Source of the DNA: Cellulophaga lytica DSM 7489
GTDB lineage: Bacteria > Bacteroidota > Bacteroidia > Flavobacteriales > Flavobacteriaceae
Reading direction: 5' to 3'
Assembly: GCF_000190595.1 (NCBI RefSeq)
Contig: NC_015167.1
Location: 2,593,501-2,657,500 of the forward strand
Length of the DNA stretch: 64,000 nucleotides
Shown: one piece after another, positions 31,483-64,000 of the stretch
How positions within the stretch are numbered: the first letter of the stretch is position 1
Layout: every line of letters begins with the position of its first letter
The notes under the pieces: generated by a model
The model's input: the letters and a program-made list of their open reading frames with translations, nothing else
Databases searched by the model: none
What the model was told of the DNA's origin: nothing
Position numbers and translations under genes: made by a program

Positions 31483-31484
31483 CG

Positions 31485-32078
31485 TTAGTTATAATAACTG
31501 TTAGCGTACTCTTTTACAGTTATACCTTTTAAATTGTAAACAATTAAATGTTTTAAAATTGTATCAGAATCATAAATATTAAAAAGATTGTCTGAAGAAA
31601 AAGCAATAGTCCCTACATTTAAAAAATATAACTCTGTAACCAGTTTAAGGTTTACATTAGGTAAAATTTGTCCTTTTTCTTTAGCATTTTTTAAAAGGTT
31701 ATAAATGATTGTAAAAGCAAGCTCATGCCTAAAATTGTAAAAAGTAGTATGGGCTTTAGGATAGTATTTTTTTAAACCAAAAATAAACGAGGGTTTAAAG
31801 TATCTTAGATACTCAAACCCTCGTTTGTATATTAGTATAATAGTAAGTATATCGTCATTTAAATTGTTTTTAACAATTTCATTAATATCCAATTTATAAT
31901 CGTTTATTAAAGACGTAACACTTTTGTTCACTAAAGTTTCTTTGTTTTTAAAATGTACATAAATCGTTTTTTTAGAAATTCCTAGCGTTTTTGCTAACTC
32001 ATCTAAAGTAATACGTTTGCTGCCAAATTTTGTAAAATTGGCTTTAGCACATTCTAAAAGCTCTTTTTTAGTGATCAT
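31485..32078 (-). CDS. TetR-family transcriptional regulator
   Basis: 197 residues. The N-terminal HTH (about 1-50) reads ANFTKFGSKRITLDELAKTLG and ISKKTIYVHFKNKE, the classic TetR pattern. The C-terminal ligand domain is not assigned to a subgroup. It is the last gene of the minus-strand efflux operon, 11 nt after the outer-membrane factor, so it may be a local repressor of the pump or regulate something else. An unusually strong hairpin (31785-31826) lies in its coding sequence. Confidence 0.88.
   Translation of the reverse strand: MITKKELLECAKANFTKFGSKRITLDELAKTLGISKKTIYVHFKNKETLVNKSVTSLINDYKLDINEIVKNNLNDDILTIILIYKRGFEYLRYFKPSFIFGLKKYYPKAHTTFYNFRHELAFTIIYNLLKNAKEKGQILPNVNLKLVTELYFLNVGTIAFSSDNLFNIYDSDTILKHLIVYNLKGITVKEYANSYYN
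31785..31826. repeat. Strong inverted repeat inside the TetR gene
   Basis: Perfect 12-bp arms (AAACGAGGGTTT at 31785-31796 and its complement at 31815-31826) enclose a second perfect 5-bp stem (GTATC 31800-31804, GATAC 31808-31812) with a 3-nt loop. The structure is translated normally in the TetR frame. It lies about 300 nt beyond the end of the convergent DUF5916 gene, so it could stop read-through from that side, although it lacks a T run. Confidence 0.6.
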
Positions 32079-32089
32079 TACTACTTATA

Positions 32090-33508
32090 TTATTTCCAGC
32101 CGCCACCAAGAGCTTCATATAAATTTACAATACTTGTTAGTTGCTGTAATTTGCTATCAATAATATTAAGTTCTGCATTTAAAGCACTTTCTCTGGCAGT
32201 TAATAAATCTAGGTAATTTGCGTACCCATTTTTAAGTAACTCTTCAGAGTTTTGCTCTGCTCTACGTAAGGCTTCAACTTGTTTTAATCTGTACTCATAT
32301 TTTTCAGTTTCTGCATTGTACGTATACAAAGCATTAGATACCTCAGAACCAGCAGTTAAAAGTGTCTTTTTAAATTGTAATAAAGACTGTTCTTGTTGTG
32401 CTAGCGCAACTTCTTTTTGTGTTTTTAGCTTACGCTGATTAAAAATAGGCTGCGTTAAACCACCAACTATATTTGCAAAAAGGGAGTTAGCGTCTAATAA
32501 TTTATCTAACTCTAAACTTTGGTATCCCCCAGAAGCTGTTAATGTTAATGAAGGATAAAAACTACTTCTAGCAACATTTGTAAGCTCAAAAGAATTAATT
32601 AAACCATATTCTGCCGCCATAACATCTGGTCTGTTGCTAAGTAATGTAGCTGGTACACCAAGCGCTAAGTCGGTTTCTATTTTTTGTATGTCTAAACTAC
32701 TTCTCTTAAAGCTTTGTGGTGCCTTACCTAATAATATACTTAACGTATTTTCTGTTCTAAAAATAGCAGCTTCAAGATCTACTTTTAAAGCTTTTGCACT
32801 ATTGTATTGTGCTATGTTTTGGTCTACTGCAACTTGAGTTACATTACCAGCATCTTTTAAGGCTTTAATTGTTTCTACACTACTTTCTCTAGTCTTAATT
32901 GTTTCTTTAGTAATAGCTAATTGGGCATCTAAAGCCAATAAGTTATAATATGTATTTGCAATACTAGAAATAAGCTGTGTTTTTACAGCTTGGTGCCCAG
33001 CAACACTTTGCATATATGCAGCTTGTGTGGCTCTTTTATTGCTTCTTATTTTACCCCAAATATCAGCTTCCCAAGATAGGTTAGCAGTAATATCATACTG
33101 GTCTGTAGAAGTATTACTTAAAAAAGAACCAAACTGACTGTTTTTAGATAACTCTTGGTGTGTGTAATTAGGACCAATGCTTAATGTTGGAAAATACCCA
33201 GCCTTACCTTGTTTAGCATAAGCCTCTGCAGCTGCCAATTGTTGAATTGCAATTCTAATATCTAAATTGTTTTGCAAACCTTCTTGTATGTACTGCTCCA
33301 AATAATTGTCAGTAAACAAGTTTTTCCAAGACACATTTGCCATAGATATACTATCTGTAGGCAAATTGTCTGTTCTGTATAAGGCCTCGGTTTGTGGTAA
33401 CTCTGGCCTATCATAATCCTTAGCAACAAAACAACTTTGTAGTGTAAAAGCAACAACTACTATAAGCGCTGTTTTGCTAATAAATTTATATTTTATTGTA
33501 GATTTCAT
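32090..33508 (-). CDS. RND efflux outer-membrane factor (NodT/OprM type lipoprotein)
   Basis: 472 residues. The lipobox LQSC (Cys 26) marks an outer-membrane lipoprotein. Two OEP repeats with long helices follow, including NVSWKNLFTDNYLEQYIQ, the NLSWEADIWGKIRSNKRA segment, LLSNRPDVMAAEY and the C-terminal RRAEQNSEELLKNGYANYLD region. It is the TolC-like exit duct of a tripartite pump, working with the RND transporter that ends 5 nt upstream and the adaptor. All three parts are encoded in order adaptor, pump, duct. Confidence 0.94.
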   Translation of the reverse strand: MKSTIKYKFISKTALIVVVAFTLQSCFVAKDYDRPELPQTEALYRTDNLPTDSISMANVSWKNLFTDNYLEQYIQEGLQNNLDIRIAIQQLAAAEAYAKQGKAGYFPTLSIGPNYTHQELSKNSQFGSFLSNTSTDQYDITANLSWEADIWGKIRSNKRATQAAYMQSVAGHQAVKTQLISSIANTYYNLLALDAQLAITKETIKTRESSVETIKALKDAGNVTQVAVDQNIAQYNSAKALKVDLEAAIFRTENTLSILLGKAPQSFKRSSLDIQKIETDLALGVPATLLSNRPDVMAAEYGLINSFELTNVARSSFYPSLTLTASGGYQSLELDKLLDANSLFANIVGGLTQPIFNQRKLKTQKEVALAQQEQSLLQFKKTLLTAGSEVSNALYTYNAETEKYEYRLKQVEALRRAEQNSEELLKNGYANYLDLLTARESALNAELNIIDSKLQQLTSIVNLYEALGGGWK

Positions 33509-33513
33509 AGTTT

Positions 33514-36500
33514 TTATTCTTCTGTAGTTTGAATTGCTGGTTTACCTGAAACTTTTTCTTGTAACCATTGAAATAAAATAAACAGTATTGGAATAACAAA
33601 TACCCCTAATATGGTACCAATTAACATACCACCAGCGGCACCAGTACCAATAGAGTTGTTACCTTCTGCACCAACACCTTTTGCTAATGCTAATGGCATT
33701 AAACCTAAAATAAAGGCAAAAGAAGTCATTAAAATTGGTCTTAAACGAGATTTAGCACCATCTATAGCAGCATCTACAATAGATTCTCCTGCTCTTCTAC
33801 GTTGCAGTGCAAACTCTACAATTAATATGGCATTTTTAGCAAGTAAACCAATAAGCATAATTAATGCAATTTGGAAGTAAATGTTATTCTCTAAGCCTAA
33901 AAACTTAGTACTTATATAAGCTCCAAATACACCAAATGGTAATGATAATACTACTGCAAATGGTAGTAAGTAACTCTCATACTGTGCACTTAATAAAAAG
34001 TAAACAAATAAAATACTTAGTATAAATATAAATGTGGTTTGACTACCAGCATTTACTTCTTCACGTGTTAAACCAGAATAAGCAACTGTATAATTACTAG
34101 GTAATTTAGCAACTTCCTCTTCTATAATTCTAATAGCATCACCTGTACTAAAACCTTCGTTTGTAGCACCTGTTATTTTTGTAGAATTAAATAAGTTAAA
34201 ACGAGTTACAGATTGTGGACCATACACACGCTCTAAGTTTACAAACTGTGTAATAGGCGTCATTTCACCAGCATCTGTTCTAACATACATACTGTTTAAA
34301 TCATCTACACTAGCTCTGTCATCTGGTAAGGCCTGTATGTATACTCTAAATTGTTTACCAAATCTAGAAAAATCTGATGCGTACACACCACCAATATAAC
34401 CCTGTAAAGTAGAGAAGATACTGCTAACAGATACTCCTTTTTCTTTAGCTAGTGGTACATTAATATCCATCTCATACTGTGGGTAACTTGTATTAAATGA
34501 AGATTGTGCATACTTAATTTCGGGGTGAGACATTAAAGCCATTGCAAACTCTTTGTTTGTTTTGTCTAATTCTGTAAACTCACCTCCAAATTTATCTAAT
34601 AAGTTAACTTCAAAACCAGCAGAGTTACCAAAACCACGTATACTTGGTGGTGAGAAGAAAATAATATTTGCTTCTGGCATTGTAGATGCAATACCAAATA
34701 ACTTACCTGTTATGGCCTGTACAGATGTAGAAGGATCTTCACGCTCTGTCCAATCTTTTAATTTAATAATACCAAAACCGTAGTTGGTACCAGCACCACT
34801 AATTAAACTTCGACCTTTAATAAAGTTAACACCAGCAATACCTTCTATACCGTTTATTTTAGAGTATAAATCTCTAGAAACAGCATCGGTTCTATCTAAA
34901 GAAGAACCCGCAGGTAATTCTATGTTTGCAAAAATAATACCTCTATCTTCATCTGGTACAAAACCAGTTGGTGTTGTTTGTGATGCCCAGTAGATACCCA
35001 CACCTGCAATTATTAATAACAATACAGAAACAAATTTTCTTTTGTATAAAAATTGAAGCGATTTACCATACCTGTCTATAGTAGCATTAAAGCCACGGTT
35101 AAATAAAGTATAAAAACGTTGTAATGGACTTTTGCCTTTTAATTCTTCATCATGTTTATGCTCTTTTAATAATAAAGCACATAAAGCCGGACTTAATGTT
35201 AATGCGTTTACTGCAGAAATTAAAATGGCAATAATTAAAGTAACTCCAAATTGCTCATAAAAAACACCAGTAGGCCCCGTAATAAATGTTACCGGAATAA
35301 ATACAGCTGCCATTACTAATGTAATAGATATAATGGCTCCAGAAATCTCGTTCATTGCAATAAGTGTAGCCTTTTTAGGATTTTTAACTCCTTCATCCAT
35401 TTTAGCATGGACGGCTTCTACCACAACAATAGCATCATCTACCACAATACCAATAGCTAATACTAATGCAAATAATGTTAGTAGATTTATAGAATACCCA
35501 AATACACTTAAGAAAAAGAAGGTACCAATAATAGATACAGGTACTGCAATTGCTGGTATTAAAGTAGATCTAAAATCTTGTAAAAAGATAAATACAACTA
35601 AGAAAACTAATAAAAAGGCTTCAACAAGTGTACTAATTACTTTTTCTATTGATGCGTTTAAGAATAAACTTGTATCATAAGGAACAAATATATTTAAACC
35701 TTCTGGCAAGTCTTTTTCTACAGATGCTAAAGTGGTTTTTATGTTTTCTATAATTTCTTGTGCATTAGAACCTTTTGTTTGAAAAATACCCATAAAAACT
35801 GCAGGGTTTCCTAAACTCATTGCGTTAGAAGAGTAAGATTGTGCATCTAACTCTATTGTAGCAACATCATTTAAACGTAAAAATTCTCCGTTACCTAATG
35901 CTTTTATAATAATATCTCCGTATTGCTTTTGTTCTTTAAAACGCCCGCTATAGGTTAAAGTATATGAAAATGCTTCTCCATTATTTTCACCTAAAGAACC
36001 AGCAGCTGCTTCTAAGTTTTGTTCTGCTAAAGCAGCAGAAATATCTGAGGGTATTAAATTATATGCTGCTAATTTTTCTGGTTTTAACCAAATACGCATA
36101 GCATAATCTTGCTGAGAAAATACAGATACATCACCAACACCGCTAATACGTTGCATTGCTGGTATAACGTTTATTTTTAAGTAGTTCTGAATAAATGTTG
36201 CATCATAATCTTCATTTTCAGAATACATAGATATAAACATTAAAGCACTAGTCTCTTGCTTTTGCGTAGTTACCCCAGTTTGTATTACCTCTTGTGGTAA
36301 TAAAGGGTTGGCTCTTGCTACACGGTTTTGTACGTTTACAGCTGCAATATCTGCATCTATTTCTTGATCAAAATAAACTGTAATTTCGGCAGTACCGTTG
36401 TTAGATGCTGTAGAGGTAATATAACTCATACCTTCTACACCATTAATTTGCTCCTCTATAGGTATAATTACACTCTCTAATACCGTTTCTGCATTGGCTC

Positions 36501-36651
36501 CTGTATATGATGCCGACACCTTAATTGTTGGTGGCGCAATATCTGGATATTCTTCTATTGGTAAACTTGTTATACTTATAACACCAAGTACAACAATGAT
36601 AATAGATATTACTGTTGAAAGAACGGGTCTTTCAATAAATGTTTTTAACAT
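33514..36651 (-). CDS. RND multidrug efflux transporter (HAE1 family)
   Basis: 1045 residues, standard for HAE1 pumps such as AcrB. It starts MLKTFIERPVLSTVISI (helix 1) and shows the two large periplasmic loops, the helix 4 proton-relay motif GIVVDDAIVVVEAVHAKM with its two Asp, and the C-terminal helices with GLLAKNAILIVEFA. It exports hydrophobic compounds by proton antiport from the inner membrane through the outer-membrane factor. It is 22 nt downstream of the adaptor gene. No truncation or missing relay residue is seen. Confidence 0.96.
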   Translation of the reverse strand: MLKTFIERPVLSTVISIIIVVLGVISITSLPIEEYPDIAPPTIKVSASYTGANAETVLESVIIPIEEQINGVEGMSYITSTASNNGTAEITVYFDQEIDADIAAVNVQNRVARANPLLPQEVIQTGVTTQKQETSALMFISMYSENEDYDATFIQNYLKINVIPAMQRISGVGDVSVFSQQDYAMRIWLKPEKLAAYNLIPSDISAALAEQNLEAAAGSLGENNGEAFSYTLTYSGRFKEQKQYGDIIIKALGNGEFLRLNDVATIELDAQSYSSNAMSLGNPAVFMGIFQTKGSNAQEIIENIKTTLASVEKDLPEGLNIFVPYDTSLFLNASIEKVISTLVEAFLLVFLVVFIFLQDFRSTLIPAIAVPVSIIGTFFFLSVFGYSINLLTLFALVLAIGIVVDDAIVVVEAVHAKMDEGVKNPKKATLIAMNEISGAIISITLVMAAVFIPVTFITGPTGVFYEQFGVTLIIAILISAVNALTLSPALCALLLKEHKHDEELKGKSPLQRFYTLFNRGFNATIDRYGKSLQFLYKRKFVSVLLLIIAGVGIYWASQTTPTGFVPDEDRGIIFANIELPAGSSLDRTDAVSRDLYSKINGIEGIAGVNFIKGRSLISGAGTNYGFGIIKLKDWTEREDPSTSVQAITGKLFGIASTMPEANIIFFSPPSIRGFGNSAGFEVNLLDKFGGEFTELDKTNKEFAMALMSHPEIKYAQSSFNTSYPQYEMDINVPLAKEKGVSVSSIFSTLQGYIGGVYASDFSRFGKQFRVYIQALPDDRASVDDLNSMYVRTDAGEMTPITQFVNLERVYGPQSVTRFNLFNSTKITGATNEGFSTGDAIRIIEEEVAKLPSNYTVAYSGLTREEVNAGSQTTFIFILSILFVYFLLSAQYESYLLPFAVVLSLPFGVFGAYISTKFLGLENNIYFQIALIMLIGLLAKNAILIVEFALQRRRAGESIVDAAIDGAKSRLRPILMTSFAFILGLMPLALAKGVGAEGNNSIGTGAAGGMLIGTILGVFVIPILFILFQWLQEKVSGKPAIQTTEE

Positions 36652-36673
36652 AACTAAATAAGTTTAGATTTTT

Positions 36674-37804
36674 TTAGTTTTTAAATAATGTAGCTATAGG
36701 TTTTATGGCATCATCAAAAGAAGTTTCTTGAGGAGTTATTACCACACCATTTTTTAATTTACCTACACCAGTTGTAACAATTTTGTCTTTAGGATCTAAA
36801 CCAGATTCTACAACATATAAATTATCTACAGTAGATTTTATTTTAATAATAGATGTAGATACTTTATTATCTTCTCCTACTTTAAATATCATTACATTAC
36901 CTTGTTGCTCATATGTTGCTTGTTGTGGTACAACAATAGCATTTTCAAACGTATTAGGTATTTGTATTTTACCACTGTTGCCATTTGTTATTAAACGGTT
37001 AGGGTTGTTAAATATAGCTCTTAAACTTACGGTACCAGTACTTGGGTTTATTTGTCCTGTACTAGTTTGTATTTTACCTTTTTCAGAGTATGTACTACCA
37101 TTTGCTAAAATTAGACTTACCTCTGGGTAATTTGCTAATTTTTCATTTAAAGTTTTACCTTCTGCCTTTTCTAAAAAGTCTAAATATTGTGTTTCATTTA
37201 AGCTAAAAAATGCATACACTTTGCTAATATCACTAACTGTAGTAAGTGGAGTAGGGTCACTTGGAGAAATTAAAGCACCTTCTCTAAAATTAATAGCACC
37301 AACGTAACCATCTACAGGGCTTTTAATTGTAGCGTAACCAATATTAGCACTTACACTGCTGTAATTAGCTTTAGCCTGTGCTAAATTAGCTTTTGCAGTT
37401 TCTAACTGAACTTCACTAATAATATTTTTTTCTACTAGTGGTATTAATTTGTTAACCTCTACCTGTGCTACATTAATACGTGCTTTTGCTGCACTAGCAT
37501 CCTGACTTAAAGATTGTGTTTCTAATCTAAATAAAACCTGACCTTTACGTACTTTTTGTCCTTCATCTACTAAAACTTTTTGAATGTAACCAGATGTTTT
37601 TGCCCTAACATCACTATTTACAATACCCTCTATTGTTGTAGGGTATTCTGCATAACTTGTTACTGTTTTAGGTTGTAATTGTGCAACCGGGAAAGGTGCT
37701 GGTGGTGCCTGTGGTGCTTGTTGTTCTTGCTTGCTTCCACAGCTCACAATGACAAGGAATGCTGCCATTGGAATTATAATTCTACTAATAGTTCTCTTTT
37801 TCAT
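36674..37804 (-). CDS. RND efflux periplasmic adaptor (MFP/HlyD type lipoprotein)
   Basis: 376 residues. The signal ends in the lipobox VIVSC (Cys 22), followed by a Gln/Pro-rich linker. The lipoyl half motifs VNSDVRAKTSGYIQKVLVDEGQ (in part) and IKSPVDGYVGAINFREGALI (in part) flank a helical hairpin of about 100 residues rich in Ala/Gln/Lys, then beta-barrel and membrane-proximal domains. It links the inner-membrane pump with the outer-membrane duct. It is 13 nt after the GbsR/MarR-like regulator. Confidence 0.95.
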   Translation of the reverse strand: MKKRTISRIIIPMAAFLVIVSCGSKQEQQAPQAPPAPFPVAQLQPKTVTSYAEYPTTIEGIVNSDVRAKTSGYIQKVLVDEGQKVRKGQVLFRLETQSLSQDASAAKARINVAQVEVNKLIPLVEKNIISEVQLETAKANLAQAKANYSSVSANIGYATIKSPVDGYVGAINFREGALISPSDPTPLTTVSDISKVYAFFSLNETQYLDFLEKAEGKTLNEKLANYPEVSLILANGSTYSEKGKIQTSTGQINPSTGTVSLRAIFNNPNRLITNGNSGKIQIPNTFENAIVVPQQATYEQQGNVMIFKVGEDNKVSTSIIKIKSTVDNLYVVESGLDPKDKIVTTGVGKLKNGVVITPQETSFDDAIKPIATLFKN

Positions 37805-37817
37805 CTTTATTCTGTCT

Positions 37818-38309
37818 TTATAGGTTAATGTTGTCCACGTTTAGTTTTGAGATGGACGTAATTGCTTGGTTTAAAAATTGTATGTAATTGTTATGAAATG
37901 TTAAATCAAATTTTTCTTCTTCTGTAGTGGTTTCTAAATCATTAATCTCTTTTTTATAATCTCTAACTTCTTGATGTAGTTCTTTTTCTACTTCCCATTT
38001 CTGTATCATATTAGAAATATGACTTTTTATTTTATTGGAAGTAATTACATAGTATTTTTTACGATCACCAGTTTTAGTAAAATATTCTATCTCTTTTATG
38101 TCTGTTAAATAGTTTAACTGCGTTGATATGGTACTTTTACTAGCACATAATAGTGATACTAAATCTTCAAAAGTTGTCCCTATTTTTCCTGTTAGGATAA
38201 TATAAGCAAGCACTCTAGAAGCTATAGGAGAATATCCGTTGTTAGATTCTATGTGTACTCCTAGTTTTTCTACTAGTGTACTTTTTTTGCTGCACATATT
38301 CTTCTTCAT
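37818..38309 (-). CDS. GbsR/MarR-like transcriptional regulator of the efflux operon
   Basis: 163 residues from ATG 38309; a TTG two codons earlier is possible but less likely. The N-terminal winged HTH shows YSPIASRVLAYIIL, FEDLVSLLCASKSTISTQLNYL and a wing GDRKKYYVI, typical of GbsR-type MarR relatives. A coiled C-terminal helix (about 105-150) should mediate dimerisation. As first gene of the operon, with a perfect palindrome over its own -33 region (38391-38411), autorepression with co-control of the pump is the likely mode. The ligand is unknown. Confidence 0.85.
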   Translation of the reverse strand: MKKNMCSKKSTLVEKLGVHIESNNGYSPIASRVLAYIILTGKIGTTFEDLVSLLCASKSTISTQLNYLTDIKEIEYFTKTGDRKKYYVITSNKIKSHISNMIQKWEVEKELHQEVRDYKKEINDLETTTEEEKFDLTFHNNYIQFLNQAITSISKLNVDNINL

Positions 38310-38373
38310 TTGCAATACCTTTTTTTTAATTAGTATTTGTTTTTATTTTCTTTTTATGTTTAAAAAGAAGCGA

Positions 38374-38381
38374 CAAAGATA
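38374..38381 (-). promoter_or_regulatory. Candidate -7 element for the efflux operon
   Basis: On the minus strand the sequence is TATCTTTG, an exact TAnnTTTG match, 64 nt before the regulator ATG. There is no TTG at the standard -33 distance; that place is taken by the palindrome 38391-38411. Confidence 0.5.
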
Positions 38382-38390
38382 TAATTGGTT

Positions 38391-38411
38391 CGGTTAGTTC
38401 AGAACTAATCG
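38391..38411. promoter_or_regulatory. Operator-like palindrome over the efflux promoter
   Basis: TTAGTTC-A-GAACTAA (38394-38408) is a perfect 15-bp inverted repeat; extended to 38391-38411 it keeps 9 of 10 pairs. It begins 9 bp upstream of the -7 element, so a bound dimer would cover the -33 region. MarR/GbsR regulators use palindromes of this size. Confidence 0.6.
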
Positions 38412-38565
38412 AAGTTAATTAATTGTTAAAGGAAATGCTTTATTTATATAGTTAAAAATCAGCTGTTTAAATTGTATTTTTAACAAATTTCAACAACTAT
38501 TTTTGTTAATTTTATGAAGATAAAAACACTTGTTTTTTTATATATTAACCCTTGTATATGCAAAA

Positions 38566-38602
38566 AAATCGCATAAAGAGGAAAGTGCTCTACATGCGAT
38601 TT
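38566..38602 (-). terminator. Second hairpin downstream of susD
   Basis: AAATCGCAT at 38566-38574 pairs perfectly with ATGCGATTT at 38594-38602; AGAG/CTCT can pair inside. Read on the minus strand the stem is followed by a run of seven T (the last two counted in the arm), which suits a back-up terminator after 38618-38653. Confidence 0.6.
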
Positions 38603-38617
38603 AAAACTAGATAAAAA

Positions 38618-38653
38618 AATACGACGATATAAGATAACTTATACCGCCGTATT
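38618..38653 (-). terminator. Main terminator of the second susCD operon
   Basis: Two 16-nt arms (38618-38633 and 38638-38653) match at 14 of 16 positions, the others being wobble pairs, around an ATAA loop. On the minus strand the stem is followed by a T-rich run (ATTTTTTATC). It begins 22 nt after the susD stop. Confidence 0.8.
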
Positions 38654-38675
38654 AAATGAACTAAAAATCTAACTA

Positions 38676-40220
38676 CTAATAACCAGGATTCTGATCTGCT
38701 TGTGTCAATTCAGAATTCTTCTCTATTTCTGTTTCTGGAATAGGGAATAAATCATTTTTAGATGTATAACCTGTTCCTGCTAATTCTGTTGCAGCTTTAC
38801 CCCAACGAACTAAATCCCAAAAACGTTGTCCTTCATGAGCTAATTCTAAAAACTTTTCGTTAACAATAGCTTCAAACAAATCGTCTCCAGCTAAAGATGC
38901 ATCTACATCTGGTAAACCAGCTCTGTTTCTAACCTTGTTAAGTTCTGTTCTTGCCTCAGCGTCTTTATTATCTTTATTATAAGCTTCAGCAGCTAATAAT
39001 AACATTTCTGCATAACGGTATAACCTATAGTTAGTACCATAGTTTAATTCTTTAACACCATCAGCACTTGTATCTTCTTCTTTTGTAGCATATTTTATTC
39101 TAATACCACCTTCATAGTCCCAAATACTTCCGCCAGTTGCAGCGCTTTCATCTACACTACCGCCAGCAGCAATTAGTTCTTCTTCTGTCATTACAGTAGC
39201 TAGTTTACGGTCTGTATCACCAGCAGCATCAAAAGCATTTAAAAGTTTAGCAGTTGGTAAGTTAAAGCCCCAACCATTAATTAAACCAACAGGAGATACA
39301 TCAAAAATACCATCACCACGTGGCCCCATTAACTGTATGTGTATGTTGTTTTCATTTCTTCCGCCCCAAGCAAAGTTACCCCAGTCTCTTCCGGTTGTAG
39401 AAATAAAACCAATTTCAAATAAGGATTCTTTTCCAAACTCGTGGTTAATACTCCAAGCATCTTCTGGGTTATCTTCTAAGTCATGCGCTGGATTAGAAAT
39501 TACAGCTTCAAAAAACGGAATAGCTTCTCCGTATAATCCTTCAAAAACCAATACTTTACCCATTAATGCCTGTGCAGCACCTTTAGAAACTCTAAAGTCT
39601 TCTGTTAAAGCAGTTTTGTCTGGTAAACCAGCAATAGCGTCTGTTAAGTCTGCTTTTACTTGTGTGTAAATATCTGCTCTAGGAGATTTAGCAATTCCAA
39701 ACTCATCTGCTGTAGATGGTATTGTTAATCTTAAAGGAACATCACCAAACATTGTAGTAAGCTCAAAATAAGACCAAGCTCTTAAAAATTTAGCTTCAGC
39801 TAATGCTAACTCTTTATTACTTAAGTCACTTTCTTTAATGTTTTCTATAACTAAGTTTGATAAAGAAATTGTTCTGTAAAACAAGTTCCAAACACTTTCT
39901 ATAGATTGGTTAGATGTAGATACGTTTGCATAATCATCTATATCTTGTAATTGTGGTTGATCTCCACTGTTACCACCGGCAGCATTCATATCATCACCAG
40001 GTAATTGTTTTACTAAAAATGCACTGTGCCAGTCTACAGAGTAGGTGTGTTGCATTAAATCATAAATACCAATTATGGCTGCATCTACGTTTTCCTCTTC
40101 AAGAAAAAATGTTTCCAAATCTTCTCCGTCTTCTCGCGGATTTGTTGTAAAATCCTCACTACATGCAGTAACTCCTCCAATAAAAAGGATAGTTACCATT
40201 GCGATTATAATTTTTTTCAT
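38676..40220 (-). CDS. SusD/RagB-type surface lipoprotein (second pair)
   Basis: 514 residues with lipobox GVTAC (Cys 20). RagB/SusD landmarks are the N-terminal ESVWNLFYRTISLSN segment, LAEAKFLRAWSYFELTTMFGDVP (in parts FLRAWSYFEL and MFGDVPL), the TPR-like helices and the C-terminal NEKFLELAHEGQRFWDLVRWGKA region. The final ITPQDQNPGY-like tail here reads QADQNPGY, as in most family members. It binds glycan at the cell surface and caps the SusC encoded 17 nt upstream. No enzyme gene is adjacent, so the substrate cannot be named. Confidence 0.95.
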   Translation of the reverse strand: MKKIIIAMVTILFIGGVTACSEDFTTNPREDGEDLETFFLEEENVDAAIIGIYDLMQHTYSVDWHSAFLVKQLPGDDMNAAGGNSGDQPQLQDIDDYANVSTSNQSIESVWNLFYRTISLSNLVIENIKESDLSNKELALAEAKFLRAWSYFELTTMFGDVPLRLTIPSTADEFGIAKSPRADIYTQVKADLTDAIAGLPDKTALTEDFRVSKGAAQALMGKVLVFEGLYGEAIPFFEAVISNPAHDLEDNPEDAWSINHEFGKESLFEIGFISTTGRDWGNFAWGGRNENNIHIQLMGPRGDGIFDVSPVGLINGWGFNLPTAKLLNAFDAAGDTDRKLATVMTEEELIAAGGSVDESAATGGSIWDYEGGIRIKYATKEEDTSADGVKELNYGTNYRLYRYAEMLLLAAEAYNKDNKDAEARTELNKVRNRAGLPDVDASLAGDDLFEAIVNEKFLELAHEGQRFWDLVRWGKAATELAGTGYTSKNDLFPIPETEIEKNSELTQADQNPGY

Positions 40221-58330: not shown

Positions 58331-59002
58331 ATGGCACAATATAGCAGAATAGAAGTTTTTAATACAATGAATGAAACCGGTTTGGTACCCTTGTTTTACC
58401 ATTCTGATGTAGATTTAGCAAAAAACATTTTAAAAGCTTGTTACAATGGAGGCGCACGCTTAATGGAATTTACCGCACGTGGAGATTTTGCTTTTGAAGT
58501 CTTTTCTGAGCTAAATAAATATGCCATAAAAGAATTACCGGGTATGGTATTAGGTGTTGGTTCTGTTACAGATGCTGCAGCAGCCTCTTTGTATATGCAA
58601 ATGGGAGCCAATTTTATTGTAACACCATCTTTTAGAGAAGACATTGCCATAGCCTGTAACAGACGCAAAGTAATGTGGTCTCCTGGATGTGGTTCTTTAA
58701 AAGAAATAAACACAGCAGAAGAGTTGGGTTGTGAGGTAGTAAAGCTATTTCCTGGCGCAACCTACGGAGCAGGTTTTGTAAAAGCCATAAAAGGCCCACA
58801 ACCGTGGACAAACGTAATGCCAACAGGCGGTGTAACTACAGAAGAAGACAATTTAACAGCTTGGTTTAATGCAGGTGTTACTTGTGTTGGTATAGGCTCT
58901 AAATTAATTAGTAAAGATGTTATAGCTAATAAAGATTATAAAGGCTTAGAGGCTACCGTAAAACAAACTATAGCAGTAATTAAAAAGCTAAAGAAAAAAT
59001 AA
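58331..59002 (+). CDS. eda: KDPG/KHG aldolase
   Basis: 223 residues, a class I aldolase of the Entner-Doudoroff type. Glu 46 in LMEFTARG and the Schiff-base Lys 138 in VVKLFPG align with the catalytic Glu 45 and Lys 133 of the E. coli enzyme. LGVGSVTDAAAA, NFIVTPSF, WSPGCGS and the phosphate-binding NVMPTGGVT segment are also present. It splits KDPG to pyruvate and glyceraldehyde 3-phosphate. It is cotranscribed with kdgK and followed by a strong terminator. Confidence 0.95.
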   Translation: MAQYSRIEVFNTMNETGLVPLFYHSDVDLAKNILKACYNGGARLMEFTARGDFAFEVFSELNKYAIKELPGMVLGVGSVTDAAAASLYMQMGANFIVTPSFREDIAIACNRRKVMWSPGCGSLKEINTAEELGCEVVKLFPGATYGAGFVKAIKGPQPWTNVMPTGGVTTEEDNLTAWFNAGVTCVGIGSKLISKDVIANKDYKGLEATVKQTIAVIKKLKKK

Positions 59003-59218: not shown

Positions 59219-59267
59219 TGCGTTTATTACACCAATATGGGTGAATAAACGCAATTAATTGCGTTTA
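59219..59267. repeat. Overlapping palindromes built from TGCGTTTA, leader of the cassette array
   Basis: TGCGTTTA occurs three times in alternating orientation. Copies 1 and 2 form a hairpin (TGCGTTTATT 59219-59228 with AATAAACGCA 59244-59253, plus CACC/GGTG inside). Copies 2 and 3 form a perfect 22-bp palindrome at 59246-59267 with centre AATT. The two hairpins exclude each other. It ends one base before the CTAAC-TA-GTTAG palindrome at the cassette boundary. Confidence 0.7.
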
Positions 59268-59284
59268 CTAACTAGTTAGCATTA
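59268..59284 (+). other. Left boundary of cassette array (candidate attI-like or leading site)
   Basis: CTAACTAGTTAG (59268-59279) is a perfect palindrome containing an R-type box GTTAGC at 59275-59280. GTTAGCATTA (59275-59284) is the exact reverse complement of TAATGCTAAC at 59760-59769, the trailing end of cassette 1. By integron logic the cassette starts after G 59275. Confidence 0.55.
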
Positions 59285-59306
59285 ATAACTCAAAGAATGT
59301 GATTTA

Positions 59307-59762
59307 ATGAATCAAAAGGAAAAAATATTTAAACAATGGAAAGAAAATACATCGAGTAGAATTGAAAATTGGAAAAAGGGACTTATTGATAAAGAAGAGG
59401 AATTAGTGTTAGACTTTTCAGAGAGTTCTCTTTCTAGTTTAGAAAATCACATAATTAGTAAGTACAGCCTAGTTGATTTAAAAAATAAAGAAAAAAACAA
59501 TGAACTTGATGGGATTGTTTCATATATGGGAGAAACTCTAATCCGCTTAATTCCAGAATCAAAATGGATTATCTATACTGAAGATAAAACGAATGTTTAT
59601 TATAACTTACCTTGTGTTTATACAAAGTATAGTGGTTCTATTTCTGTCCATTTCCTGTTGAGAGAAATATTAAACGCAAAAACATTCGATATAATAGAAA
59701 CTCGTTTAAAGGCAGTTCTAAAATGTGATGAGGAAATTAGAAAACACTTAAAAGAAAACTAA
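59307..59762 (+). CDS. Unknown protein, cargo of cassette 1
   Basis: 151 residues; I do not recognise a family. The sequence is hydrophilic with no signal peptide or membrane segment, so it is probably cytosolic. Its N-terminal half is charged and helical (MNQKEKIFKQWKEN, DKEEELVLDFSESS), and the middle carries IVSYMGETLIRLIPESKWIIY, a pattern reminiscent of small immunity-like or SMI1-like proteins but too weak to assign. It occupies nearly the whole cassette: the ATG is 31 nt from the left boundary and the TAA itself forms the first bases of the attC-like site. That tight packing is typical for integron cassettes, which often carry unknown small proteins. Confidence 0.6.
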   Translation: MNQKEKIFKQWKENTSSRIENWKKGLIDKEEELVLDFSESSLSSLENHIISKYSLVDLKNKEKNNELDGIVSYMGETLIRLIPESKWIIYTEDKTNVYYNLPCVYTKYSGSISVHFLLREILNAKTFDIIETRLKAVLKCDEEIRKHLKEN

Positions 59763-59963
59763 TGCTAACACTGTATATAGCAAATACGGCGCTCGGTGGT
59801 TTAAGGAAGTTCAGTGCTATTTACCAACACCGCCAAATCGTTGATTTGGCTTTTAAGAATGAATAAATTAAAAACAAAATACAACGTTTTGGCTCAGTGC
59901 AACTTGAAAGTTTATCGCTTTCTACTGCCCTACTTGCCATATACTAAACGTTAGCAACAAGCC
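59760..59963 (+). repeat. attC-like site 1 (between cassettes 1 and 2)
   Basis: The site begins with R'' GCTAAC (59764-59769) directly at the stop codon of cassette gene 1 and ends with R' GTTAGC (59950-59955). The outer 25-30 nt of both ends are imperfectly complementary: GTATATAGCAAATACGGC at 59773-59790 corresponds to GTATATGGCAAGTAGGGC on the opposite strand of the right end, 15 of 18. An internal 8-bp hairpin, GCCAAATC (59832-59839) with GATTTGGC (59843-59850), lies in the centre. At 192 bp from R'' to R' it is longer than most attC sites. The right part, GTTAGCAAC and following AAGCC, matches the far end of cassette 2. Confidence 0.65.
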
Positions 59964-59983
59964 ATAGCAAACCCTAAATAAGA

Positions 59984-62683
59984 ATGAGTAAAATCAATTC
60001 CCACATATTTGATATTGATAAAACAATTTGTAAGAACATTGAGAAATTTGATATTAATGAAAGAGGGTTATTATCTCAAAATATTTTATCTCAACTTAGG
60101 AATTATGTTGAACATATTGCCCTAAAAGTTTTTGAGGATGCACAACAAACAGAATTAAATAATAGCTACGAAAATATCCAGAACGCTATTGAATATATAA
60201 AAGCTAGAGGAGACTTAAAATTTTTATCAAGATTTCATAAACTCTTACAAATTACAGCTTCGCATTATACTCTAAACGAAGAAAGTTCAGAAAGATTAAT
60301 ACTAAAATACTTCGAATACCTTATTAAAATAAAGTCTTTTCTTTACAATACATATAATTTAGATGTTCTTCACAACCTAAAAGATTTTCCAATCCAAACA
60401 GATTCTAACTTAAAAGAATATTATGACAAAATTTCTTCATTAATTAAGCAACCAGAAGGGAATCGAAAAAAAACTAATTACAAAGACAGATATTATATTC
60501 AAAAAATAAAACCTTTTTTTGTAAAAAATGAAATATTCTATGAAGTAACTTTTCGCAGAGCTAATGATTATACTAGCAAATTTGACAGAATAATTGCTTT
60601 TACGAAGCTTGAAATTCTTGGAAATTATGCAGTAAAATTATCAATAAGCACAGATTTTATAGAGATTTTAGATAAAAAAATGCCTATTCAAATCATTGAT
60701 AGTTGGGAGGTTTCAATACGACCTTGTGAAATAGATAATTTCGCAAAAATTTTTGGCGTGAACTCTAAAATTAGTAGTGGTAAGGAACCTTATGAACTAA
60801 TGAAATATTTAACATCCACCGGATTAAATTTAGTAGAGGTTATTAGTTTAAATGATTGGTATTATGAATACGTAAAAAAGACGGTTACTGAAAAAGCTAA
60901 AGCTTCTCGAATATTCCAACTACTGGACAAATGCAGAGAAATGAGTAGAACTAAAAGTGACGGTCATAACCTACTTAGGTATTTACTACTCAAGCTTAAT
61001 AATAAAATAATTAAAAAACAATACACTAATTCTCCTTGTGATTTATTATCAAATCTAAATTTAGAGTTTGGGTGTATTCCTTTTGACCAAATGCCTTTTA
61101 ATTCGGCATTAATTAATCACAATCCTAAATTGAGTGACCTTTTTGCATCTATCAATACTGAAGACAGAAAACACGAAATATTAGCAAGACATATAAAAAA
61201 CAATACAGAACAAAAAGGACAATTATTTACTGCTATCAATGAAATTGAAAACTTTGATAATGTTGAAGAACTTATAAGTCAATGGAATGACAATCTATAT
61301 TGGAAACACAAAAATAGAGGAATAGAAAGTTTTAAAAAAAATGTATTTATCAAAGGCTATGAAGCAGATACTTTTAACATTATAAACAAACTAAAAGAAA
61401 TATCATCTACGGGAATTAAAAATTATAAAAACTCAATAGAATCTTGGCTTAATTCAACTGCTTATAAAATTGATTGTGAAGAAAAAAAGACTGCTCTTAA
61501 AAACTTATTCGAAAGCTCAAAAGTAGCTTTAATTTATGGGGCAGCTGGAACTGGAAAATCAACTATGATTAATCATATTTCAAACTTTTTTGACAAAGAA
61601 AGTAAGTTATATTTGGCAAATACAAATCCTGCAGTTGACAATTTAAAACGTAATATAAAGGTTGCCAATTGTAATTTTAAAACTATAACCAAATTTACTT
61701 GGAGTAAAGAAACTGAATACGATATTTTAATTATAGATGAGTGCAGTACAGTAAGTAATTCGGATATGCTTAAAATACTTAACAAAGCAAAATTCAGGCT
61801 GCTTATTCTTGTTGGAGACGTATTTCAAATAGAATCAATACTTTTTGGTAATTGGTTCAGTCTAATAAAATCTTTTATTCCAGAATCTTCAGTATTTGAA
61901 TTGGAAAAACCTTATAGAAGTAATAATCCAGATTTATTAAGACTTTGGGAAAGAGTAAGAAACATTGAAGACAATATTCTAGAAAGTTTAACGAAAAACG
62001 AATATTCTAAAACACTTGATAATTCAATTTTTCAAAATGCCGAAGAAGACGAAATAATACTTTGTTTGAATTACGATGGGCTTTACGGCATAAACAATAT
62101 AAATTCATTTTTACAAAGCAGTAATTCTAATCAGACATTTATTTGGGGTACTCAAACTTACAAAGTTGAAGACCCAATAATTTTTAACGAATCAGGTCGC
62201 TTTTCACCATTAATTTATAATAACCTAAAAGGTAAAATCTCAGGAATTGAATTACTTGGCGAACAAATACAATTTGACATTGAAGTTAATCTAGTACTTA
62301 ATGAATTTGATACTGAGTGGTATGATTTTGAACTCTTAGATAATTCTGAAAATGGAAATTCTGTAATTCGATTTACTGTCGATAAGTACAAAAGTACTGA
62401 TAATGATGATGACGATTCTAGCAATATTATTCCTTTTCAAGTAGCTTATGCAGTTTCTATCCATAAAGCACAAGGATTAGAATATAATTCTGTAAAAATT
62501 GTGATAACAGATGAAGTTGAAGAGATGATTTCCCATAATATCTTTTATACAGCAATTACAAGAGCAAAAGAAAATCTAAAAATTTATTGGACACCTGAAT
62601 CTGAAAAGAAAATTATAGAAAGTTTTAAAACTAAGTTTAACAAAAAGGACTATGCTTTACTTAAAACAAAGAATAGTCTTTAA
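59984..62683 (+). CDS. SF1 helicase with N-terminal HEPN-like region, cargo of cassette 2
   Basis: 899 residues. The C-terminal half is an SF1 motor of the RecD/UvrD kind: Walker A GAAGTGKS (519-526), Walker B IIDECS (583-588), motif III LVGDVFQIES (609-618), the arginine motif KPYRSNNPDL (642-651), SIHKAQGLEY (825-834) and YTAITRAK (855-862). The N-terminal 450 residues are mostly helical and not assigned. RNYVEH at 39-44 is Rx4H with Asn after Arg, the signature of HEPN RNases, and sits in a predicted helix. There is no signal peptide. It may be an RNA- or DNA-directed defence protein in which the motor gates a nuclease; that is inference. It fills cassette 2 and is far larger than usual integron cargo. 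Confidence 0.75.
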   Translation: MSKINSHIFDIDKTICKNIEKFDINERGLLSQNILSQLRNYVEHIALKVFEDAQQTELNNSYENIQNAIEYIKARGDLKFLSRFHKLLQITASHYTLNEESSERLILKYFEYLIKIKSFLYNTYNLDVLHNLKDFPIQTDSNLKEYYDKISSLIKQPEGNRKKTNYKDRYYIQKIKPFFVKNEIFYEVTFRRANDYTSKFDRIIAFTKLEILGNYAVKLSISTDFIEILDKKMPIQIIDSWEVSIRPCEIDNFAKIFGVNSKISSGKEPYELMKYLTSTGLNLVEVISLNDWYYEYVKKTVTEKAKASRIFQLLDKCREMSRTKSDGHNLLRYLLLKLNNKIIKKQYTNSPCDLLSNLNLEFGCIPFDQMPFNSALINHNPKLSDLFASINTEDRKHEILARHIKNNTEQKGQLFTAINEIENFDNVEELISQWNDNLYWKHKNRGIESFKKNVFIKGYEADTFNIINKLKEISSTGIKNYKNSIESWLNSTAYKIDCEEKKTALKNLFESSKVALIYGAAGTGKSTMINHISNFFDKESKLYLANTNPAVDNLKRNIKVANCNFKTITKFTWSKETEYDILIIDECSTVSNSDMLKILNKAKFRLLILVGDVFQIESILFGNWFSLIKSFIPESSVFELEKPYRSNNPDLLRLWERVRNIEDNILESLTKNEYSKTLDNSIFQNAEEDEIILCLNYDGLYGINNINSFLQSSNSNQTFIWGTQTYKVEDPIIFNESGRFSPLIYNNLKGKISGIELLGEQIQFDIEVNLVLNEFDTEWYDFELLDNSENGNSVIRFTVDKYKSTDNDDDDSSNIIPFQVAYAVSIHKAQGLEYNSVKIVITDEVEEMISHNIFYTAITRAKENLKIYWTPESEKKIIESFKTKFNKKDYALLKTKNSL

Positions 62684-62693
62684 TTAATAAAAA

Positions 62694-62872
62694 GGCCAGT
62701 TGCTAACAATGTATAAAAAACATAGGGCGTTCGTGCTTAATCGAAGGTCTGTGATTATTTCTTGTTTTAGCCTACTTACGAATCCCGATGCGTCGGGACT
62801 AGCGGATTTTTTATTTGCTAAATTAATTCCTTAAACACGCCACTAATCATACAAAAAACGTTGTGCGTAAGC
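62694..62872 (+). repeat. attC-like site 2 (between cassettes 2 and 3)
   Basis: GGCCAGTTGCTAAC (62694-62707) is the reverse complement, 12 of 14, of the leading end of cassette 2 (59950-59963). The site ends with AAAAAACGTTGTGCG, where R' GTTGTGC is at 62860-62866. R'' (GCTAAC) and R' (GTTGTGC) of this site do not match each other, but each matches its own cassette, as expected after cassette-by-cassette insertion. TCCCGA-tgcg-TCGGGA at 62783-62798 forms an internal hairpin. Its flanks AATGTATAA and CATACAAAAAACG resemble those of site 1. Confidence 0.65.
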
Positions 62873-62900
62873 TAAAACAGCATCTACAAAATTGAAATAT

Positions 62901-63836
62901 ATGAACAAAACAAGAGTATTTATTTATTCAGTAATATTAATTTTAATAACTAGTTGTGCAACTAGCAAAGCAGTAAAATACTTTAAAGAAGGAAAAACAA
63001 AACAAGAAAACTTTAAAGTTACTTTACCTTTCGAAATTAAAAATGGTTGGATAATTATTCCTGTAGAAATAAATAATAAAAATTATAATTTTCTTTTTGA
63101 TACTGGGACGCCAACTCTTGTGTCAAAAGAACTTGCTAAAAGTTTAAATTTGAAAATTATTGACTCTGTAAATGTTTCTGATGTTTTTAATAAAAAACAA
63201 ACTAATCAATATACCAGAATAGAATCTATTGGAATTGGAAAAATAGATTTTGTTGAAACAGTAGCCTTAATAAATGATTTTAATTCAATACCAATGTGGT
63301 CTTCTCTCAATATTGACGGGTTTATTGGTTCAAGTTTACTGCAACACGCTATTTGGGATATTGATTTTGATAAGAAACAAATTATTATAACTGACAATGA
63401 ATCGAAATTAAGCTTACCTGAAAAAATAATTGAAAATAAATTATTTATTGGTTATGCAGGAATACCTTCTATTGCTTGTAAAATAAATGGTGAAAAAGTT
63501 TGGAATTTTGATGTCGATTTTGGCTATAATGGAGATTTAGTTATACCTTTTTCCGAATTTGAAAAGCAAAAAGAAAATGGACAAATATCAGATTTCACTG
63601 AATCTAAAACAACCGGTTCTATTGGGATTTATGGAAAACACGACAATGCAAGGATATCTTACACAGGAATTATTAATGAATTAGAATTCGGAAATACTAT
63701 TTTAAAAAAACAAAAAGTATATTCAGAGCAATATTTGGGTAGAAGATTTGGTTTAGACTTTTTTAAAAATTATCGAGTAATTCTAAATTGGAATAGTAAA
63801 AAAATAAAGTTAATAGAATATAATAACTCTAAATAA
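62901..63836 (+). CDS. Retropepsin-like aspartic protease family lipoprotein, cargo of cassette 3
   Basis: 311 residues from ATG 62901; a TTG at 62892 would add three residues. The lipobox LITSC (Cys 19) indicates a membrane-anchored exported protein. The first catalytic-type motif NYNFLFDTGTPTLVS contains DTG (about residues 65-80), followed by GFIGSSLLQHAIWDIDF, the usual flap and hydrophobic-Gly element. The second half, VWNFDVDFGYNGDLVIP, keeps an Asp and Gly but not a clear DTG, and the later GRRFGLDFFKNYRVILNW repeats the hydrophobic element. So the protein has a two-lobed layout with a degenerate second lobe; protease activity is uncertain. It starts 41 nt after the cassette boundary and ends 2 nt before the trailing repeat. 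Confidence 0.75.
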   Translation: MNKTRVFIYSVILILITSCATSKAVKYFKEGKTKQENFKVTLPFEIKNGWIIIPVEINNKNYNFLFDTGTPTLVSKELAKSLNLKIIDSVNVSDVFNKKQTNQYTRIESIGIGKIDFVETVALINDFNSIPMWSSLNIDGFIGSSLLQHAIWDIDFDKKQIIITDNESKLSLPEKIIENKLFIGYAGIPSIACKINGEKVWNFDVDFGYNGDLVIPFSEFEKQKENGQISDFTESKTTGSIGIYGKHDNARISYTGIINELEFGNTILKKQKVYSEQYLGRRFGLDFFKNYRVILNWNSKKIKLIEYNNSK

Positions 63837-63838
63837 AA

Positions 63839-63884
63839 GCCTACGCACAACAAAGTACTGTGGTAAAAAATAAGTAATAACTAA
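63839..63884 (+). repeat. attC-like site 3, left part only
   Basis: GCCTACGCACAAC (63839-63851) is the reverse complement, 12 of 13, of the leading end of cassette 3 (62860-62872). It is followed by AAAGTACTGTGG, comparable to the sequences after R'' in sites 1 and 2. No AACGTT right end is found before the transposase gene that starts (its 3' end) at 63885, so the site looks interrupted. Confidence 0.55.
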
Positions 63885-64000
63885 CTAATTTTCAGCTAAA
63901 GTGCTTCTGTAAGAATCATCATATACTAGTTCTGATTTTGCAATAGCAAAGGCTTGTTTTAATAATTTATTGCATATGGCTATTAGCGCTAACTTTTTAA
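63885..64000 (-). mobile_element. IS110/IS1111-family transposase gene, C-terminal end
   Basis: On the minus strand an open frame enters from the window edge (first full codon 63998-63996) and stops at TAG 63887-63885. The 37 residues visible, KKLALIAICNKLLKQAFAI then AKSELVYDDSYRSTLAEN, match the C-terminal tail of Transposase_20 of IS110-type elements, which have the NKLLKQ(V/A)FAI pattern in Bacteroidota. The catalytic Ser-containing region and the left half lie beyond the window. It directly abuts the interrupted third attC-like site, which fits the habit of some IS1111-group elements to insert in attC. Confidence 0.75.

Follow-up and report, generated by a model that had tools for sequence, protein, structure and literature searches.

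An integron-type cassette array of Cellulophaga lytica and its likely integrase, a relative of IntI without the IntI-specific insert

The window analysed here, a stretch of 64,000 nucleotides covering positions 2593501-2657500 of contig C1 in the 3.77-Mb single-contig genome of Cellulophaga lytica DSM 7489 (G000), carries near its right end a small integron-type cassette array. The array occupies one of the attI-like platforms, about twelve in number, that are scattered over the chromosome. One tyrosine recombinase of 297 amino acids, which lacks the insert of the canonical integron integrase IntI and is encoded at the head of a large array elsewhere in the genome (main array), most likely drives the cassettes at its own attI and at the roughly dozen scattered platforms, a reading to which we assign a probability of about 87%. 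We hold with high confidence that the window array works like an integron array. The evidence taken from sequence comprises the arrays, the attI copies, cassette-specific end tags, a bias towards folding of the bottom strand, GTT boundaries with cassette turnover and the position of the recombinase gene at array heads, and from it we infer that the enzyme catalyses recombination and acts in trans on the window platform. In the proposed mechanism, the recombinase would most likely insert circular cassettes at G/TT, both in the attI beside its gene and in the orphan copies, and cassettes would be excised by recombination between two attC sites via the folded attC bottom strand, as in canonical integrons.

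Arrays, attI-like platforms and the site family

A sequence-only reading of the window had claimed three inverted repeats, each enclosing one gene, and all three were recovered where they had been placed, with identical match counts. The genes had also been described as filling their cassettes in one orientation, which agrees with the three same-strand open reading frames (ORFs; 3/3) occupying the spaces between the window sites. The platform and the cassettes comprise the following features, all given in window coordinates:

59219..59253, plus strand: dyad TGCGTTTAT...CCAATATGG...AATAAACGCA, directly upstream of and overlapping the attI-like core
59244..59277, plus strand: attI-like core AATAAACGCAATTAATTGCGTTTACTAACTA followed by GTT (motif AATAAACGCAATNANTTGCGTTTANTNNNTA followed by GTT), heading the window array; crossover expected between G59275 and T59276
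59276..59950, plus strand: cassette 1, R' GTTAGCATTA at 59275 and R'' TAATGCTAAC at 59760, matching at 10/10 positions
59307..59762, plus strand: ORF of cassette 1, 151 amino acids, no Pfam or PADLOC match
59760..59959, plus strand: attC-like site 1, long type, R'' AAC at 59767-59769 and GTT at 59950-59952
59951..62860, plus strand: cassette 2, R' GTTAGCAACAAGCC at 59950 and R'' GGCCAGTTGCTAAC at 62694, matching at 12/14 positions
59984..62683, plus strand: ORF of cassette 2, 899 amino acids, superfamily 1 (SF1)-helicase-like, Pfam helicase domains
62694..62872, plus strand: attC-like site 2, R'' AAC at 62705-62707 and GTT at 62860-62862
62861..63851, plus strand: cassette 3 up to R'', R' GTTGTGCGTAAGC at 62860 and R'' GCCTACGCACAAC at 63839, matching at 12/13 positions
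62901..63836, plus strand: ORF of cassette 3, 311 amino acids, aspartyl-protease-like, Pfam PF13650 (1.4e-11)
63839..64000, plus strand: attC-like site 3, with an insertion-sequence-like remnant directly after R''; the last L'/R' lies beyond the window at about 64041-64080

Since site 3 is split by this apparent remnant, the array ends just beyond the window (~64078 in window coordinates). The cassette 2 protein matches the PADLOC phage-defence candidate PDC-S53 with 1340 bits over residues 1-897 of 899.

The main array, located on the minus strand 967 kb from the window array, spans 1685155 to 1660818 and contains 23 sites by pattern scan; this count of 23 cassettes is a lower bound, as the covariance model R1 described below adds two sites. 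At its head lies the gene of the likely integrase:

C1:1685204-1686097, minus strand (the strand of the main array): tyrosine recombinase, 297 amino acids

About 50 bp past the 3' end of this gene, the attI sequence AATAAACGCAATAAACTGCGTTTACTAACTA followed by GTT is found at 1685155, where the first cassette starts. In 23/23 main-array stretches the longest ORF is on the array strand (a few stretches hold more than one ORF), and several cassettes are duplicated within the array. Pfam matches were obtained for five of 10 proteins scanned from the 23 stretches, in three cases to families of unknown function. Two features by which integrons are recognised are hence directly observed, namely tandem cassettes of the same orientation fitted between the sites and an attI adjoining the integrase gene.

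Allowing up to three mismatches, the attI motif occurs in eight copies in the genome, compared to none for the reversed-pattern control, and the window core matches the pattern with 0 mismatches, as does the integrase-proximal copy. Further attI-like copies at 1038819 and 1045983, obtained by a looser scan of fetched stretches, and the variants at 2482406 and 2509886 bring the total to twelve, each with a site match within ~2 kb downstream, the one at 810412 being weak (E 0.013). In the attI copies compared, GTT and a tag (the bases directly following GTT) are present in all but the variant at 307531 of G209 C2, and a tag partner was found within the short fetched stretch for some copies only.

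Searched against the genome as DNA, site 2 gives 29 other matches at E<0.01 and 40 at E<=10, mostly clustered. R1 is our own covariance model of the short site type, built with the tags excluded from 34 diverse sites; some of these derive from the Cellulophaga genome, and some were first chosen by tag from loci of other genomes that also enter the tag test below. It reports 62 matches at E<=1 in the Cellulophaga genome, 50 of them at E<=0.001, including some sites from which it was built. Lack of a second genomic occurrence had been named as speaking against an integron; by both searches the site family recurs in the genome. Rfam gave four matches, every one under its gathering score, and a first pattern search for sites was uninformative with 10 matches compared to 26 for the reversed control.

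Cassette tags, strand asymmetry and turnover of cassettes

In the tag test, the seven bases after the GTT at the front of a cassette were compared with the reverse complement of the seven bases before the AAC at its back. For 26 cassettes of the C. lytica genome (23 from the main array and three from the window), 148/182 tag bases match and 16/26 tags match perfectly, while 100,000 shuffles gave a mean of 77.7 and a maximum of 113; tags of different cassettes facing each other at one site match at chance level (72/168). The same holds for 143 cassettes in 15 loci of other genomes, in which the sites were located by a profile blind to tags: 879/1001 tag bases match and 92 tags are perfect, compared to a mean of 385 and a maximum of 454 in 20,000 shuffles and to 393/1001 for neighbours. 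A match within cassettes but not between neighbours is the pattern that crossing over at G/TT leaves behind, so that complementarity of R' and R'' in the attC sites is inherited through this crossover, as known for integrons. The cassette logic proposed from the window alone, in which R' pairs with the R'' of the same cassette and not with that of the neighbour, is thus borne out on 26 own and 143 foreign cassettes, and the proposed G/TT crossover agrees both with the tag pattern and with the boundaries seen in congeners.

The sites are attC-like in having the layout R''-L''-L'-R' and a hairpin for which the bottom strand is preferred. Within the L stem (16 bp) of the 34 sites, 428 pairs are Watson-Crick, 82 read A.C in the top and thus G.T in the bottom strand, three are G.T in the top strand and 30 are other pairs. 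The bottom strand is predicted to be more stable in 126/138 distinct sites compared to 91/200 random window pieces, and for site 1 of the window the predicted energies are -30.5 for the bottom and -24.9 for the top strand. When the own ends of the main-array cassettes are joined as in the excised circle, the mean predicted bottom-strand energy falls from -21.35 to -26.25 and is lower in 21/23 cases, while shuffled cassette ends give -21.43. Predicted folding and wobble asymmetry together point to a structure-dependent bottom-strand site, a further integron trait.

Turnover of cassettes was followed at the locus next to the window array, where 58331-59002 holds a gene that we take to encode an aldolase-like protein of the 2-keto-3-deoxy-6-phosphogluconate (KDPG) type. 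Six congeners were examined there. In G213, G209 and G203 the left flank is kept up to the attI GTT or three to four bases past it and is followed by different cassettes. Homology returns in or just after the last site in G213 and G203, where it reaches into the following gene; in G209 it returns only further on. The sequence-only reading had proposed to look for related genomes with different genes between the same sites, and this is what the shared left boundary in three congeners and the shared right flank in two of them represent. The cassette 3 gene is also present in G213 at the same platform with 85.6% DNA identity, the end of the motif before GTT differs in G213 and G209 (TATATATA and TATATGTA), G203 has another insertion upstream of the attI motif, and the remaining three (G200, G208 and G201) have no attI motif at the aldolase locus. 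Moreover, a stretch of 848 bp at 1078 kb has 96% identity to a cassette in another genus (G121), the identity beginning at CGTTGC and stopping at the R'' side.

These data also bear on what the repeats are. Palindromic mobile elements, similar to repetitive extragenic palindromes (REP) or miniature inverted-repeat transposable elements (MITE), or terminators spread by a transposase might produce palindromic sites, and an insertion-sequence-like remnant is indeed found in three of them. Such elements predict neither gene-specific end tags nor the 82:3 strand bias, and neither attI motifs at array heads nor a cassette turnover ending at GTT, and we consider it extremely improbable that the repeats are elements or terminators of this kind instead of recombination sites. 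As a separate observation, three arrays contain the insertion-sequence-like end CAAAGTACTGTGGTAAAAAA, which starts in each of them at a cassette's R'' end (window 63850-64000; C1:1079426, plus strand; C1:1710904, minus strand). It seems to resemble the end of an IS110-family transposase, and the IS110 family includes members targeting attC.

A second alternative concerns the window platform only, which might be a fossil, i.e., an attI and array split by rearrangement from a copy of the integrase and no longer served in trans. The interruption of site 3 and the stop codons that interrupt the integrase gene of G213 would fit such decay. Against it, other cassettes occupy the window platform in three congeners, and the main array shares with the 2503-kb platform a 933-bp stretch of 99.8% identity that spans a main-array cassette and part of its site. 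Furthermore, in the aligned copies of five Cellulophaga genomes the upstream dyad is common to the orphan attI copies and missing from the integrase-proximal ones, which argues that the orphan copies are not simply cut-off integrase loci. A fossil platform is therefore regarded as unlikely, and an integrase acting in trans is preferred.

A recombinase related to IntI but lacking its insert

The sequence-only reading had suggested a search for a tyrosine integrase of the IntI type. A tyrosine recombinase at the head of an array was found; the IntI type did not stand, as the protein is without the IntI-specific insert. It scores 206.8 bits in two stretches against the integron integrase model TIGR02249, below the curated cut-off of 265, and as high (207 bits) against XerA (NF040815), likewise below the cut-off of 220; the scores against XerD (170.9, cut-off 329.6) and XerC (166, cut-off 335.15) are below as well. 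The region corresponding to its residues 190-236 has a length of 47-48 residues in 127/127 relatives measured (a few represent the same protein from two sources), 89 residues in 30/30 canonical IntI, and 53 and 55 residues in two Xer-like proteins of the own genome. A tree of 35 rows, limited by its small number of outgroups and by long branches, unites the insert-less proteins in one clade (99/91) that is sister to canonical IntI including PDB 2a3v (98/90), and two XerA and the two own Xer-like proteins fall apart from this pair. These sequence comparisons place the integrase in a family that is sister to IntI and has no IntI-specific insert. As the ~42-amino-acid insert is missing, the likely integrase falls outside IntI as that family is defined. 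The additional domain of IntI is said to be necessary, going by the title of the work of Messier and Roy from 2001.

The resemblance is not entirely new. A relative on a Chryseobacterium plasmid carries the NCBI label "site-specific tyrosine recombinase/integron integrase", so the resemblance is already known at the level of labels. According to PMC8138268, the insert is incompletely conserved in an integron-like subgroup, which indicates that insert-less relatives of IntI have been seen earlier as sequences. A literature search outside subscription journals and preprints retrieved no paper that, by title or abstract, deals with insert-less flavobacterial integron integrases.

Within the genus, presence of the attI motif follows the integrase. 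At <=2 mismatches the motif is found in 5/18 Cellulophaga genomes, the same five that carry an integrase gene of 72-100% identity to the own one, and in each of the five one attI copy adjoins the integrase 3' end. The motif is found in 0/13 of the remaining genomes, of which 12 encode integrases of 41-52% identity and one (G207) gives no integrase match.

Distribution across genomes and comparison with known systems

Relatives of the integrase (E<=1e-50) are encoded in 121/199 genomes of the family. The sites had been proposed for a search in other flavobacterial genomes, and R1 matches at E<=0.001 occur in 175/199 family genomes, including 119/121 of those with an integrase. Of 20 integrase loci fetched (5-19 kb), 15 have at least two sites by tag search. 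In a scan of named genomes, restricted to the best 80 of at least 557 integrase relatives, R1 sites (E<=0.01) are found at 37 loci, all on the integrase strand and 3' of the integrase. We regard it as fairly probable that a second integrase family, sister to IntI and insert-less, drives cassette arrays in a large part of the Flavobacteriaceae and also outside this family. In this reading, a single enzyme of the family would serve a distributed integron in Cellulophaga, with cassettes moving between about a dozen attI platforms scattered over one chromosome.

Single genomes add observations of their own. G159 (L085, L086, L108) has two integrase copies of equal score, 82% identical to the own protein and each beside an array; a third relative in this genome is more distant and has R1 sites in its vicinity. 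On a plasmid of Chryseobacterium sp. SNU WT5 (L331), an integrase of the family is followed by four R1 sites with repeated tags GTTGGGAAAA, and the array contains an IS110-family transposase. On plasmid pHH1107 (L330, 6067-8088), tet(X3) is directly preceded, in the same orientation, by TnpF, a relative of the integrase (49.8% identity over 241 query residues). The idea of tet(X3) as a cassette belonging to the flavobacterial system was considered and dropped, as no R1 site lies beside it and the lone tag-like pair looks like chance.

The window array had been read as CALIN-type, i.e., as a cluster of attC sites lacking an integrase. There is indeed no integrase nearby; the array occupies an attI-like platform of its own, and the integrase likely to be its cognate is encoded 967 kb away. 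An alternative reading would make it a degenerate CALIN from a canonical IntI integron, with the insert-less recombinase as an unrelated Xer-like protein lying beside a large array by chance. This finds support in the literature, which defines IntI by the additional domain and calls the domain necessary (PMC8138268; the title of Messier and Roy, 2001, as given in the reference lists of PMC2426708 and PMC9668308). Moreover, in a draw of 395 genomes from the phylum, canonical IntI exceeds the NCBIfam cut-off in 105 and R1 sites at E<=1e-4 are present in 110, with both R1 attC-like sites and canonical IntI occurring in one genome in some cases (G254, G265, G315, G318, G380 and others). However, the own genome has no canonical IntI match (five matches to PF00589, no match to TIGR02249 at E<=1e-50), and of 108 phylum genomes with an IntI match at E<=1e-50 none is of the same family and one is of the same class. 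While R1 sites lie 3' of insert-less integrases in 37/80 loci, the best R1 match around 30 canonical IntI has E 0.31, within shorter flanks (~1.3 kb per side). The attI motif, finally, co-occurs with the insert-less integrase (5/5 vs 0/13). A degenerate CALIN is accordingly judged quite improbable, and the insert-less recombinase remains the preferred driver of the arrays.

Several results weigh against the preferred reading. The window repeats alone are within chance, since exact 9-bp GTTR inverted pairs form chains of no more than three in the window and chains of at least three occur in 41/100 Markov resamples of it; the case therefore rests on genome-wide evidence outside the window. Among the window sites, site 2 is only a weak R1 match (25.7 bits, E 0.035), what is left of site 3 is a still weaker one (C1:2657462-2657566, E 0.16), and site 1 goes unreported; moreover, the top strand of site 2 folds slightly better in the array form (-17.1 vs -15.1). 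An empty platform was not found, and the loci L134, L136 and L137 have no attI motif near the aldolase gene. In the main array, 6/23 stretches match at fewer than six of seven tag positions; in five of these six, a tag partner in the interior shows that a site had been overlooked. The link between integrase and sites is not one to one, as 56/78 family genomes with no integrase match at E<=1e-50 have R1 sites. By tag search, 5/20 fetched integrase loci lack any site, and 43 of the best 80 named loci are without an R1 site at E<=0.01, many of them ending soon after the integrase. Finally, a gene shared with G014 (L038 18079-18531 and L100 8512-8965) is followed in the two genera by different attC bodies after R''.

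If an insert-less sister family of IntI indeed operates attC arrays in the majority of genera of a large bacterial family, a major system of gene exchange escapes searches in which the insert is required, and the rule on the IntI insert needs revision. Flavobacterial cassettes, including the phage-defence candidate, would be a new reservoir for study, and many attI copies per integrase would offer a natural test of trans-acting cassette delivery.

Among the known systems, the CALIN of the lytic Polaribacter phage P12002L (L328) resembles the window array in its several attC sites of flavobacterial design, detected by a loose pattern at 31117-39710 near DNA-modification genes, and differs from the Cellulophaga system in having no integrase. 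R1 finds no site in this phage, and a blastn search of one site against phages gave no match. For P12002L, one of two tested attC sites was recombined by IntI1 and no recombinants were obtained from its top strand, according to PMC9892861. CALINs in general share with the window array the lack of an integrase nearby, and one origin proposed for them in PMC8618304 is off-target insertion by an integrase located elsewhere. Unlike in a CALIN, cassettes in the window are inserted at an attI-like motif that recurs across the genome and not at an arbitrary secondary site. XerA, XerC and XerD also lack the IntI insert, but the insert-less clade is sister to IntI and located at cassette arrays.

Closest in organisation are sedentary chromosomal integrons, e.g., of Vibrio (IntI4, PDB 2a3v), with which the Cellulophaga system shares tandem cassettes of the same orientation, attC sites of the layout R''-L''-L'-R', the G/TT signature, the bottom-strand hairpin bias, an attI beside the integrase and duplicated cassettes. 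These shared traits are general features of integrons, in which the integrase is usually divergent from the array. In contrast, the Cellulophaga integrase lacks the ~42-amino-acid IntI insert (47-48 vs 89 residues), its array follows the 3' end of the integrase gene in the same orientation, the cassettes have tags of ~7 nt past GTT, and orphan attI copies are present elsewhere in the chromosome.

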